A DNA stretch of 35,805 nucleotides, taken from contig JAUWIN010000015.1 of assembly GCA_030605345.1 (NCBI GenBank), positions 1-35,805 on the forward strand, in the 5' to 3' direction. Below are positions 1,550 to 34,219 of the stretch, in pieces (the stretch's first letter is position 1; every line of letters starts with the position of its first letter). The DNA is from Candidatus Brocadiia bacterium. GTDB lineage: Bacteria; Planctomycetota; PUPC01. A program made the translations under genes and the position numbers. The notes under the pieces are model-generated. The model did not search any database. It was not told the DNA's origin and saw only the letters and a program-made list of their open reading frames with translations.

Positions 1550-1566
1550 GCTACAACGTTTGTAGC
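1550..1566. promoter_or_regulatory. Single GCTACA-N5-TGTAGC palindrome
   Basis: GCTACA-ACGTT-TGTAGC is a perfect 6+6 palindrome with a 5-base spacer, identical in its arms to the tandem sites at 1741-1777 and 33867-33903. It is followed by ATATACG, which could be a -10-like element. The flanking GCCCCTCC block (about 1571-1578) is the complement of part of the GAGGGGCGG block at about 1791-1799 downstream of the tandem sites. It is probably an auxiliary operator for the same DNA-binding protein (inference). Confidence 0.6.
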
Positions 1567-1740
1567 ATATACGCCCCTCCGCTGCTATTTTCAGAAAAAA
1601 CCAAAAAGTTTTGAGCGGCGCGTGGCGCTGCCCTGCCGGCTGTGCAACAACGTAAGCACCGGGTTTATCAGTGGTTATCACCCAGGGCAAAAAGGAGGCC
1701 GGCGCTCGAAAAGCGTATTATTTTGAAACATTAGCAAAAT

Positions 1741-1786
1741 GCTACAGCGCTTGTAGCAATGCTACAGCATTTGTAGCACGTATAAG
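1741..1786 (+). promoter_or_regulatory. Tandem palindromic operator and putative promoter of the PEP-CTERM gene
   Basis: Two perfect palindromes, GCTACA-GCGCT-TGTAGC (1741-1757) and GCTACA-GCATT-TGTAGC (1761-1777), are separated by AAT, giving a 20-bp centre-to-centre distance, so both lie on about the same DNA face. They are followed by ACG and TATAAG (1781-1786), a plausible -10. There is no TTGACA-like -35; the second palindrome occupies that position, which suggests an activator-dependent or tightly repressed promoter. The same layout, including ACG-TATA, precedes the sugar transferase gene at 33.9 kb. A start near 1793 would give a 5' leader of about 309 nt before the gene at 2102. Confidence 0.65.
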
Positions 1787-2101: not shown

Positions 2102-2860
2102 ATGAAGTATTATGCACGTAAATATCTGCTTGTTCTGATGACCGCGGCAATTGGGCTCGGGCTTGGTAGCCAGGTGACCGCGGAGGTGATGCTGGCTGAG
2201 GATTTCGAGGCTTACGACCTCGGAACTTGGCCTTCAAGTTGGGTTCCCGACGCCAACGCTAATGATTCCGGTAACAATTACGTGGCTCAGGATCCGTTGG
2301 ATTCAGGAAACAAGACGTTGCGGCTCTTTGGGTCGATGGGGGGCTGCTGGGCGGCACTAGCCTACCACCCTATAAGTTTCACGGCCGAGTTCACTGTTGA
2401 GACCCGCATATACAACGGCTCCGAGACACTGACAGGGTGTCACCCTGATAGGGGAGGGATAGTCATGAGACATGGGACCTACTGGTACGGGCGTACGAAT
2501 CCATCGCGTCGTCTGATCCAGTTCAGGGGGGATGGTGCAGTAAGAGCAACTGGCGCAACTATCCTTGGGACCTATGAGACTGACAGATGGTATGACGTAA
2601 AAGTTCACTATTACCGGGAAGGCACCGATCTGTCGCTACGTTACTGGGTAGATGGAGACGACTTCGGGGAGGTCCACGTAACGATCGAGGATCTCGAAAA
2701 AGAACTATCTTTTGATCACTTTGAGTTATCGGTACAAGAGGGTTCCGCGTATTTCGACGACTTGGAAGTCACTGAGGGTTCAGCCCCCATCCCCGAACCA
2801 GCGACGCTGGGGCTGATTGGCCTTGGTCTTATTCCACTCATCCGCAGACGGAGGAGGTAA
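2102..2860 (+). CDS. PEP-CTERM sorting domain protein, lectin/LamG-like
   Basis: The 252-residue secreted protein starts at an ATG preceded by a strong AAGGAG (2089-2094). A signal peptide follows (charged MKYYARK, then a hydrophobic stretch ending near VTAE). The middle looks like a concanavalin-type beta sandwich: EDFEAYDLGTWPSSW at the start and WYDVKVHYY...YWVDG...FDDLEV near the end. The C-terminus is a classic PEP-CTERM signal: IPEPATLGLIGLGLIPLI followed by five Arg. Such tails are recognised by exosortase for processing at the membrane, often with exopolysaccharide; no exosortase gene is seen in this window. The reading frame stays open far upstream, but the ribosome site and signal peptide fix the start. 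Ligand unknown. Confidence 0.85.
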   Translation: MKYYARKYLLVLMTAAIGLGLGSQVTAEVMLAEDFEAYDLGTWPSSWVPDANANDSGNNYVAQDPLDSGNKTLRLFGSMGGCWAALAYHPISFTAEFTVETRIYNGSETLTGCHPDRGGIVMRHGTYWYGRTNPSRRLIQFRGDGAVRATGATILGTYETDRWYDVKVHYYREGTDLSLRYWVDGDDFGEVHVTIEDLEKELSFDHFELSVQEGSAYFDDLEVTEGSAPIPEPATLGLIGLGLIPLIRRRRR

Positions 2861-2910
2861 CGAATAGTCACGCGCTCCCGGTGAAACGTCGTGGAGAACT
2901 ACGAACGAAA

Positions 2911-3105
2911 GGAGGTGATGCCGGCGAGAAACAATCAATGTTGTGGCGCCGGATGGTCCGGCGCCAACAAGGGACGAAAGACGCCGTGTGGTGGATTGCC
3001 GTGCGAGCACGGCACAAAGCGCGTCCCTCGCAGGACGAGGCCGGTTTTTCTGGTCTTATCACTTTTCATGCCGAGGAGACGAGGAGCATGAAAAATGGGA
3101 CCAGA
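2911..3105 (+). promoter_or_regulatory. Structured leader, copy 2, upstream of kelch PEP-CTERM gene
   Basis: GGAGGTG (2911-2917) is followed 34 nt from its start by a perfect 9-bp hairpin, GGCGCCGGA-TGG-TCCGGCGCC (2945-2965), matching copy 1 before the first PEP-CTERM gene. Further structure follows: GGGACG (2971-2976) can pair with CGTCCC (3022-3027) enclosing GCCGTG-CGAG-CACGGC (2998-3013); and TCTGGTC (3049-3055) with GACCAGA (3099-3105) encloses TTTTCATGC (3063-3071) / GCATGAAAA (3086-3094). The last stem buries an in-frame GGAGC-ATG. The density of perfect stems in this stretch without a convincing gene argues for a folded RNA leader. Confidence 0.5.
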
Positions 3106-3195
3106 TCTCTGGCAGGCAAAGTGGCCGCCTACTCGCTGGACGGTCGTTACCAACTTAGTTTCGAGGTCGAAAAACAAATCAGAAGGGAGATGGAC

Positions 3196-4356
3196 ATGAG
3201 CAGCAAATTGAAAAGTGTGGTTACATCGGTCCTGTTTCTTTTCCTGGCATCGGCAATTTCTAACGCTGAGGGCATCGTGCACACGACCGCTGACCTATCC
3301 GAGGCCCGGTACAACTTGGCATCTGTGGCAGTCGGGGACAAGGTGCTTTTTGCGGGCGGTTTCGTCGCAGACGGTCAGGGCAGCGCGACCGTGGACATCT
3401 ACGATATTCACACAGGCCTGTGGAGCACCGCCTCCCTGTCGCAGGCAAGAGGACACCTTGCCGCAGCGGCTGTAGGGACCAAAGCTTTCTTCGCTGGCGG
3501 GGCTGAGATAATCGACGGTCCAGTATATAGCAGCAGGGTGGATATTTACGACGCCGCCACCGGCGAATGGACGACGGAGGAACTGTCCCAGGCTCGATGG
3601 GAGTTCACAGGCACAACCGTTGGCAATAAGGTGCTTTTCGCCGGCGGCGATATTGCGGGGACTAAGTCCGCTGTTGTTGACATTTTCGATTCGGCGACCG
3701 GTCAGTGGTCCGTTGAATCCCTGTCAACGGCCAGGTCCACGCCAGGCGCTACATCCGTTGGGGACGAGGCGTTCTTCGCCGGTGGATTCCCGATAAGAAA
3801 GACGGTCGATGTATATGACAATGCAGGCGGTACGTGGACTACAGCTGGCCTCTCAGAGGCTCGGGACTGGGTTGCGGCAACGTCCGCCGGAGGGAAGGCG
3901 TTGTTCGGTGGAGGCTTCGTGGGTAATTACTACGGTCAGACGCGTTCTGACGTAGTAGACATCTATGATCCTACCAATGGCGACTGGTCAGTCAGCCATC
4001 TTTCACTTGGTCGCGAAGCCTTGGCGGCGGCGGCTTGGGGCGATTTAGCATTCTTCGGCGGCGGGTCGCCCAACAAGTACGACGATCCGACCGATATTGT
4101 AGATGTCTACGATGTATGTGCTGAGCAATGGTCCACTCTAGCCCTTTCGGTGGGCAGGTATTGTCTGTCTGCGGCGTCGAACGGCGGCATGGTCTTCTTT
4201 GCTGGGGGTGTTGGCGATGCTGAATGGGAGCCAACCCCTCCAACACCCAGCAGTGTTGTCGACATCTACACGATTCGCGAGCCGGTCCCCGAACCGGCGA
4301 CGCTGGCGCTGCTTGGCTTTGGTCTCATCCCGCTCATTCGCAGACGGAGGAGGTAG
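3196..4356 (+). CDS. PEP-CTERM protein with seven-bladed kelch-type propeller
   Basis: The 386-residue protein has a signal peptide (MSSKLKSVVTSVLFLFLASA...NAEG) and then seven repeats of about 48 residues. Each repeat contains a K/E-x-L/F-F-x-G-G strand (FAGG or FGGG) and a VDIYD...WS/T strand, the signature of kelch propellers. It ends in VPEPATLALLGFGLIPLI plus five Arg, a PEP-CTERM signal for exosortase. I chose the ATG at 3196 over the in-frame ATG at 3190 because AAGGGAG (3183-3189) is then 6 bases away and the signal peptide is compact; longer upstream starts would bury the signal. It probably acts as an exposed or matrix-associated binding protein; ligand unknown. It is co-oriented with the first PEP-CTERM gene, 335 bases downstream. 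Confidence 0.85.
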   Translation: MSSKLKSVVTSVLFLFLASAISNAEGIVHTTADLSEARYNLASVAVGDKVLFAGGFVADGQGSATVDIYDIHTGLWSTASLSQARGHLAAAAVGTKAFFAGGAEIIDGPVYSSRVDIYDAATGEWTTEELSQARWEFTGTTVGNKVLFAGGDIAGTKSAVVDIFDSATGQWSVESLSTARSTPGATSVGDEAFFAGGFPIRKTVDVYDNAGGTWTTAGLSEARDWVAATSAGGKALFGGGFVGNYYGQTRSDVVDIYDPTNGDWSVSHLSLGREALAAAAWGDLAFFGGGSPNKYDDPTDIVDVYDVCAEQWSTLALSVGRYCLSAASNGGMVFFAGGVGDAEWEPTPPTPSSVVDIYTIREPVPEPATLALLGFGLIPLIRRRRR

Positions 4357-33033: not shown

Positions 33034-33690
33034 TCAGTTTGCGTTCCGGCCGTTGACCGTGCGGAGGGTCCACAGGAGGATACGCGTGTCCATCCCCCAG
33101 GACATTCTCTTGACGTAAACCAGGTCGTAGGTTAGTTTGTTCCTCACATCGGCCAGACTTTCGTCATATTTGTACCGGACCTGGGCGAGGCCGGTGATGC
33201 CCGGCTTGACGGCCAGGCGCATCTCGTAATTTGGGATCTCCCTGCGGAAGCGATTGACGAAGAACGGCCTCTCCGGCCGCGGGCCAATGAGGCTCATCTC
33301 GCCGCGAAGGACGTTGATGAGTTGAGGGAACTCGTCAATGTGCGTTTTGCGGAGGAAACTGCCCAGCTTGGTAATCCGGCTGTCGCGCCGCCTTGCCCAG
33401 ACAGGGCCGGTAGCTTTTTCTGCCCCGGTTTGCATCGTCCGGAGCTTGATGATTTCGAACAGTTTCCCACTTTTGCCCACTCGCGCCTGTTTGAAGAACG
33501 CCTGGCCTTTGCTCGTCAGCTTGATGAGGACTGCAAAGAATAAAATAACCGGCCCGAGGACGAGGAGCAAAAACGAACCCCCTAAGAGGTCTAGCGCGCG
33601 CTTTATCTCCCGGAAACCGCGACGTGCGAATCGAAGCGTCAGCCCGGTCAGCCCTCCGCCCATTACCGCCATTGTGATAGGCTCCGGCAT
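33034..33690 (-). CDS. Bacterial sugar transferase (polyprenyl-phosphate glycosyl-1-phosphate transferase)
   Basis: The 218-residue protein has one membrane segment (GGSFLLLVLGPVILFFAVLIKL) and the catalytic bacterial sugar transferase domain: FKQARVGKSGKLFEIIKLRTM, RITKLGSFLRKTHIDEFPQLINVLRGEMSLIGPRPERPFF, and YEMRLAVKPGITGLAQV. It lacks the extra N-terminal helices of WbaP-like enzymes. It would place the first sugar-phosphate on undecaprenyl phosphate for an exopolysaccharide. Upstream (33858-33903) lies the same tandem operator-promoter as upstream of the PEP-CTERM gene. PEP-CTERM/exosortase loci often include such a transferase, so the shared regulation makes sense. Confidence 0.93.
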   Translation of the reverse strand: MPEPITMAVMGGGLTGLTLRFARRGFREIKRALDLLGGSFLLLVLGPVILFFAVLIKLTSKGQAFFKQARVGKSGKLFEIIKLRTMQTGAEKATGPVWARRRDSRITKLGSFLRKTHIDEFPQLINVLRGEMSLIGPRPERPFFVNRFRREIPNYEMRLAVKPGITGLAQVRYKYDESLADVRNKLTYDLVYVKRMSWGMDTRILLWTLRTVNGRNAN

Positions 33691-33857
33691 CGTCGTCTCC
33701 TCTACTGGTCCCCAATCAGGTTACTGTTAGTTCACCAATTCTGTTCTTGTGCGGTGTATCTTGTACGAACACTGGCTTCACGGCCGCAAGATGCGCGCCC
33801 GCCGCCGACAACACTGACCAAGTCGACAACACGACCCCACGCCGCCCGGCCTCCACT

Positions 33858-33903
33858 AATATACGTGCTACAAACGCTGTAGCATTGCTACACGGCGTGT
33901 AGC
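33858..33903 (-). promoter_or_regulatory. Tandem palindromic operator and putative promoter of the sugar transferase gene
   Basis: On the minus strand, GCTACA-CGCCG-TGTAGC (33903-33887), AAT, GCTACA-GCGTT-TGTAGC (33883-33867), then ACG and TATATT (33863-33858). The arms, the AAT between palindromes and the ACG-TATA that follows are identical to the element at 1741-1786. No -35 is present; the second palindrome sits there. The transferase start codon is about 168 bases downstream. Confidence 0.65.
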
Positions 33904-34219
33904 AATTTCTCTGCGGGCAGCGCAGCGTGACGTCCGTTTGCTTGTAAGATAAGGCACTACGGAGACTTACGCCACCTCCGCGCCAGCGCGTTACGGCCGC
34001 GTCTGCCTGCATTTTTTTCTGCCAGGTTGTAGGCGAAGTTGACAAAGTAATATTGCCAAAATCAATGTCTAAACGATATAAGAGCAAATACCGTGCCAGC
34101 CGAGGGGAGGAATTTTTCCGCGTCGACGGCCGTCCGCGCAATCGCCTGCGCAGCAAGGAGTTACGGCACATATTTCTTCACAATCGAAGGAAATAGCCGG
34201 AATGATGAACGTCTCAGTC
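33904..34219. other. Intergenic region
   Basis: No gene is supported on either strand. Small open frames (for example the one beginning at 34093) show no recognisable domain. Confidence 0.45.

Follow-up and report, generated by a model that had tools for sequence, protein, structure and literature searches.

A probable tandem-palindrome operator with a -10-like box before PEP-CTERM and sugar-transferase genes in a Candidatus Brocadiia bacterium, and its putative winged-helix regulator

In the genome of a Candidatus Brocadiia bacterium seven tandem pairs of 17-bp palindromes, each followed by a -10-like box, precede genes for PEP-CTERM proteins or for an exopolysaccharide-type sugar transferase; and we consider this module to be probably the bipartite operator–promoter of a small PEP-CTERM/exopolysaccharide regulon, to which a winged-helix regulator of the ISTGY family would bind as two dimers, the working name of the family having been taken from its C-terminal motif. 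The original prediction, made from the window alone (the whole stretch of 35,805 nucleotides analyzed), had described at 33858-33903 a 46-bp layout of paired palindromes, AAT, ACG, and TATATT, and both the coordinates and the letters were found to be as described. The minus strand 33903..33858, at the sugar-transferase locus, reads GCTACACGCCGTGTAGC-AAT-GCTACAGCGTTTGTAGC-ACG-TATATT, and the plus strand 1741..1786, at the PEP-CTERM locus of the window, reads GCTACAGCGCTTGTAGC-AAT-GCTACAGCATTTGTAGC-ACG-TATAAG. The paired units alone occupy 37 bp (33867-33903), to which the interval 33858-33903 adds the ACG and the TATATT box. The features of the two loci are as follows:

33887..33903, minus strand: operator unit 1 (distal), GCTACACGCCGTGTAGC, from the sequence
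33884..33886, minus strand: AAT separating unit 1 from unit 2, invariant in 7/7 pairs
33867..33883, minus strand: operator unit 2 (promoter-proximal), GCTACAGCGTTTGTAGC, from the sequence
33858..33863, minus strand: TATATT, the -10-like box, 3 bp past unit 2, TATAWT-like in 7/7 loci
33850..33857, minus strand: AGTGGAGG, the conserved RGTRGAGR stretch past the -10-like box
33034..33690, minus strand: bacterial sugar transferase (Bac_transf; EPS_sugtrans/XrtA-type glycosyltransferase models), from profile matches
1550..1566, plus strand: lone unpaired 17-bp unit
1741..1757, plus strand: operator unit 1 of the PEP-CTERM locus
1761..1777, plus strand: operator unit 2 of the PEP-CTERM locus
1781..1786, plus strand: TATAAG, the -10-like box of the PEP-CTERM locus
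2102..2857, plus strand: PEP-CTERM protein downstream of the 1741 operator (TIGR02595, 17.9 bits, cut-off 16)
2881..4356, plus strand: second PEP-CTERM protein, with Kelch repeats; its start codon may lie further downstream

A 151-aa open frame (33716-34171, minus strand) spans the sugar-transferase operator and is probably spurious.

We surveyed 2.28 Mb of this genome (91.9% complete), with the reversed motif as the control pattern. In the window, GCTACAN5TGTAGC with up to two mismatches had five matches, all of them perfect, against an expected 0.64 and with 0/100 shuffles reaching five, while the whole genome contained 15 perfect GCTACA-N5-TGTAGC units versus 0 for the control; which counts bear out the earlier contention that the shared layout exceeds chance. 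Since one-mismatch copies numbered 0 genome-wide, and the remaining matches, all with two mismatches, were rarer than those of the control (40 sites versus 201), the motif is sharply defined. Fourteen of the 15 perfect units form the seven tandem pairs, with a period of exactly 20 bp in each, the remaining unit being unpaired; and the oriented consensus of the seven pairs is AAW-GCTACA-n5-TGTAGC-AAT-GCTACA-n5-TGTAGC-(acg)-TATAWT-RGTRGAGR. At the usual spacing to the -10-like box we found no -35-like hexamer in the seven loci.

Regarding the genes so equipped, six of the pairs precede PEP-CTERM genes and one (33858-33903) the sugar transferase, with none at unrelated genes, so that the proposed sharing of one regulon by PEP-CTERM proteins and exopolysaccharide synthesis is supported genome-wide by 7/7 pairs. 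Those outside the window, on C15, C56 (two), C60, and C67, all stand before genes whose products have PEP-CTERM-like tails; the C15 tail and that of the first C60 gene score just under the curated PEP-CTERM cut-off, and those of C67 and of the second C56 gene were assigned by eye along with weak subfamily matches. On C60 the genes headed by the pair include at least five clustered ones for PEP-CTERM proteins. A PEP-CTERM/exosortase system is present in the genome, which encodes one exosortase (PF09721; C32:55-1068, the gene start lying at the contig edge and its promoter outside the readable sequence) and several PEP-CTERM proteins, with 25 PEP-CTERM motifs above the cut-off; and because further PEP-CTERM genes (on C80, C82, and others) are without the element, the latter marks a sub-regulon. 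The genes that follow the sugar transferase in the window—those of an M48 peptidase, HEAT repeats, a WecA-type transferase, TrkA, and DNA polymerase I—are mixed, which leaves the first gene as the one clear coat gene.

Two further observations pertain to the leaders of these genes. The sequence AAGGAGGTGRTGC, a near-full complement of the 16S rRNA 3' end, has six copies in the genome versus 0 for the control (window 2909-2921, on C47; C56:39861; C60:32369; C60:34838; C67:19986; and C67:21390), all confined to operator, PEP-CTERM, or regulator loci and several far ahead of the coding start, as a shared leader element; and the copy at 2909 is the reason why the 2881..4356 gene may start later. 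In addition, a small Zn-ribbon-like ORF of about 60 aa (...RFHSIQ..GNQPPVELWHCPSCNS...) comes first after the operator in two genera, being located between the operator and the PEP-CTERM gene in L018 (C60), L019 (C67), and L071 (G001).

The candidate regulator is encoded by two intact genes, whose products are 62% identical over 200 residues:

C60:35428-36132: intact ISTGY gene, 235 aa, directly upstream of the C60 pair region
C67:20173-20979: intact ISTGY gene, 269 aa, ending 30 bp short of the C67 pair

The ISTGY gene and the perfect pair of C60 are separated by a decayed copy of the gene tail and operator. The ISTGY domain had no match among the Pfam, NCBIfam, PHROG, and PADLOC models, and the likely regulator is new, belonging to an undescribed family of predicted DNA-binding proteins with an unnamed C-terminal domain. 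Within the phylum, 29 of the 294 genomes searched had homologues, many of the latter fused to TPR, helicase, or QueC/QatC-like parts; the last of these, known from the QatC-like proteins of the Qat defence system, stands N-terminally ahead of the domain in 4/29 scanned homologues, whereas the stand-alone regulators of the present genome do not have it. We also considered autoregulation in this genome, which we rejected upon finding no half-sites within 400 bp upstream of either the C60 or the C67 regulator gene.

The kinship of the operator to sites in other genomes surfaced only via the regulator gene, after pattern scans of the relatives, among which the exact pair occurred in 0/98 other genomes and a relaxed pair pattern had no match in eight. 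In G001, which belongs to another genus of the same family, a regulator homologue 36% identical is followed by GCTACACGCTATGTAGC-AAT-GCTACGTGGTTTATACC, and the gene order is kept, namely regulator, GCTACAcgctaTGTAGC-AAT-GCTACG..., small Zn-ribbon ORF, and PEP-CTERM gene; in G008, from another family, the sole perfect unit in 4.5 Mb is directly behind an ISTGY homologue. We then have the scan for tandem 17-bp palindromes with a period of 19–22 bp within 90 nt past the stop codon, for which the ORFs of the same loci served as controls: at a score of at least 19 such palindromes followed 12/30 homologues versus 1/540 control ORFs, and at a score of 18 they followed 16 of the 30 versus seven of the 540, with about half of the homologues being without them. 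The arms of the two units agreed at 10.75 of 12 positions within a genome versus 7.7 of 12 between genomes (0/20,000 permutations), the variants being GCTAC/GTAGC, GCGAC/GTCGC, GTTAC/GTAAC, GTAAC/GTTAC, and ATCAC/GTGAT around a core AC...GT flanking the loop, in which A4, C5, and T14 are invariant in 38/38 units and G13 in 37/38. That the arms of two separate palindromes change in concert is to be expected if a single sequence-specific protein reads both.

The same concerted change would not be needed by RNA hairpins, which consideration bears on the possibility that the palindromes act in RNA, as a pair of short hairpins within a leader or 3' UTR, either bound by the ISTGY protein or belonging to an attenuator. 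The position of the element in phages and other genomes speaks in favor of such a role, as outside the present genome the site lies behind a gene, after the stop codon and often ahead of a terminator; and on inspection the sequences seem able to form a third hairpin and to pair CCCGGC with GCCGGG. Nevertheless, we regard an action in RNA as unlikely: the mismatches at arm positions 1–5 are mostly not G-U (two G-U versus seven others), both units have the same arms although RNA pairing alone would not require it, the folds beyond the operator are mostly no better than those of shuffles, no Rfam family matched, and in this genome a -10-like box comes directly after the operator.

Returning to the ISTGY protein as a reader of DNA, we obtained AlphaFold2 models for two phage or deltaproteobacterial domains, with pLDDT values of 76 and 78, in which strands come first, followed by two helices, a coiled-coil hairpin, one long and one short helix, and a final two strands (bbb-H-H-coiled coil-H-H-wing). 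The modeled order fits an OmpR/PhoB winged helix that a coiled coil splits after helix 2, ahead of the recognition helix, and we regard this fold as likely. With the first model the top 18 PDB matches in Foldseek were all of the OmpR/PhoB superfamily, though none was significant (best E 0.12), the best ones being the weak matches to PhoB, RstA, VicR, and OmpR (E of 0.12 or above); the second model gave mixed matches that included coiled-coil and other helical proteins; and a sequence search of the PDB with the family profile gave mostly coiled-coil or designed-helix matches confined to the coiled-coil part.

From the genetic linkage and the concerted variation we infer that the ISTGY protein is the binder. 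Against this reading count the weak fold matches, the palindrome-free half of the homologues, the want of a site ahead of either regulator gene in this genome, and the position of the sites elsewhere, which follow a gene instead of preceding an obvious -10 box. Two dimers of the protein would occupy the 17-bp palindromes side by side, two helical turns apart along the same face of the DNA, from where, upon some presumed signal, they would contact the RNA polymerase at the -10-like box 3 bp past the second unit. As no -35-like hexamer is present, activation is somewhat likelier than repression, and by analogy such activation might proceed in the manner of PhoB at the pho box. The likeness to the OmpR/PhoB regulators and their pho box extends to the predicted order of secondary structures and to two sites about two turns apart by the -10 region; but the ISTGY domain would carry its coiled-coil insert after helix 2, ahead of the predicted recognition helix, the fold match is not significant, the stand-alone ISTGY proteins have no receiver domain, and the half-sites here are palindromic, whereas the pho-type boxes are direct repeats.

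The history of the seven loci is in part recorded in what lies upstream of the pairs, as may be seen in the window:

1602..1729, plus strand: relic of the 3' end of an ISTGY regulator gene (alignment score 94, against a highest score of 60 among 500 shuffles)
1652..1678, plus strand: 27-bp spaced dyad GTAAG-N17-GTTAT, within the relic
33944..33970, minus strand: 27-bp spaced dyad GTAAG-N17-CTTAC, from sequence inspection

At five of the seven loci—the 1741 locus (w1), C15, C56a, C60, and the intact C67—the 128 bp ahead of the pair align with the 3' end of the regulator gene far above shuffles, several of these tails being decayed coding sequence, and the regulon has therefore probably grown by the copying of the gene tail together with the operator. 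A relic before the sugar-transferase operator was likewise sought and rejected as not significant, since 112/500 shuffles reached its score; that locus and C56:47386, which have the class-B promoters, share an upstream segment of their own. The dyad, with the consensus RTAAG-N17-STTAY, is present in 7/7 loci at either 67–68 or 88–89 bp upstream of unit 1, which two distances differ by 21 bp, or two helical turns; in the intact regulator genes the same 27 bp are coding sequence for the ISTG...Y motif. We also noted an identical 17-mer, ACTTTGTCAACTTCGCC, on the minus strand of both the window (34032-34048) and C56 (C56:47784-47800), at differing distances upstream of the class-B promoters, with one more copy, having one mismatch, on C111.

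Such descent recalls the alternative foreseen along with the original prediction, that the regions might be copies of one mobile repeat also found at unrelated sites; of which alternative the kinship stood, the loci being related by descent, but the unrelated sites did not, as no unrelated gene carries a copy. That the pairs are mobile or duplicated repeats devoid of regulatory function has on its side the regulator 3' ends upstream of five loci and the common segment of the other two, and is yet highly improbable. Identity between loci is 88% within the 37-bp pair, 64% over the next 23 bp, and 27–34% in the flanks farther out than some 30 bp upstream or 60 bp downstream; the half-sites, perfect in 15/15 copies, have thus been held while the surroundings drifted down to some 30%. 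Furthermore, on C60, where the tail and the operator are tandemly duplicated, the regulator-proximal copy is decayed (two mismatches and the second unit lost), whereas the PEP-CTERM-proximal copy is perfect, which contrast may be viewed as a natural experiment favoring function.

A pattern scan of the GTDB on DNA alone yielded 38 loci, and one of these, the deltaproteobacterial L032, encodes an ISTGY domain (E 1.5e-42) that was absent from the training set of the profile; the 3' end of this domain gene overlaps its own pair, and the neighbouring genes encode a sigma factor and a phage-type exonuclease. In the IMG/VR the element occurred on 35 viral contigs, in six of which a domain gene ends 7–31 nt before the element, and in several more a domain gene is within a few kb. 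The linkage of site and domain thus extends across genera, phyla, and phages. It is quite possible, though we would stop short of calling it probable, that a regulator–operator pair common to phages and mobile elements was domesticated as a surface-coat switch and then spread through copying of the gene's 3' end and the operator, with the tail serving as a portable promoter cassette.

The same GTDB scan, however, raised the question of whether an ordinary winged-helix protein of the HxlR family might read the sites here, inasmuch as about 22 of the 38 loci have an HxlR-like gene within some 90 bp of the pattern and 4/4 of the tested proteins matched PF01638; tandem CTACAN5TGTAG, 4–6 bp apart, stands directly before HxlR genes in the Bacteroidota, the Colwelliaceae, and the Rhizobiales. 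These HxlR autoregulatory operators (CTACA-N5-TGTAG pairs) have nearly the same pattern and spacing as the present one, but they belong to another protein family and lie before that family's own start codon. We rejected HxlR as the binder, an attribution that we hold to be very unlikely, since no PF01638 gene was found in this genome (91.9% complete; 0 matches at E up to 10, with 14/14 control genomes positive), the neighbours of the sites in this genome are ISTGY genes, and it is the ISTGY family that the concerted variation of the arms tracks. The HxlR loci are a convergent use of a similar operator.

Among known systems, the proteobacterial PEP-CTERM genes have been associated with PrsR, PrsK, and PrsT and with an upstream sigma-54 site (Haft et al., 2006; PMC1569441), an RpoN-dependent PEP-CTERM gene has been described in the Proteobacteria (PMC9850573), and a response regulator of Desulfovibrio has been shown on PEP-CTERM targets (PMC3333781). 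The present module resembles the PrsR/sigma-54 system in its common cis-element before many PEP-CTERM genes, its long leaders, and its link to exopolysaccharide, and differs from it in that its site is a tandem palindrome adjoining a -10-like box and its candidate regulator is not NtrC-like. Sigma-54 control was rejected, the best matches to TGGCAC-N5-TTGC having two to three mismatches in the 10 fixed positions in all seven regions. In the open-licence literature we found no published description of the operator site, which is weak evidence of absence, nor a described regulator of PEP-CTERM genes outside the Proteobacteria, the sigma-54/PrsR system being the only one that we encountered for such genes. 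The present data accordingly point to a specific candidate protein, give its presumed operator to the letter, and outline a putative PEP-CTERM regulon of seven loci; define an undescribed protein domain whose putative cognate site has a set position immediately past the domain's own gene; provide, in the concerted variation of the half-sites between genomes, a natural data set on how a winged helix may read DNA; and suggest, through the relic gene tails, a route of regulon growth.

Other loci of the scans merit mention. In L036, L037, L055, and L058, from deltaproteobacterial and Brocadiales MAGs, CTACAN5TGTAG tandem pairs precede type IV pilin-like genes by about 200 bp (the L037 product matches N_methyl), which loci are possibly another regulon under a look-alike operator. 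In L032, L087, L152, and other phage-type loci we noticed by eye, past the tandem palindrome, a GCGCC, what may be a third hairpin, and a CCCGGC able to pair with the terminator-loop GCCGGG, all ahead of a small conserved protein (...NFGRIE...); these downstream elements may form an attenuator, the single folds being not significant.
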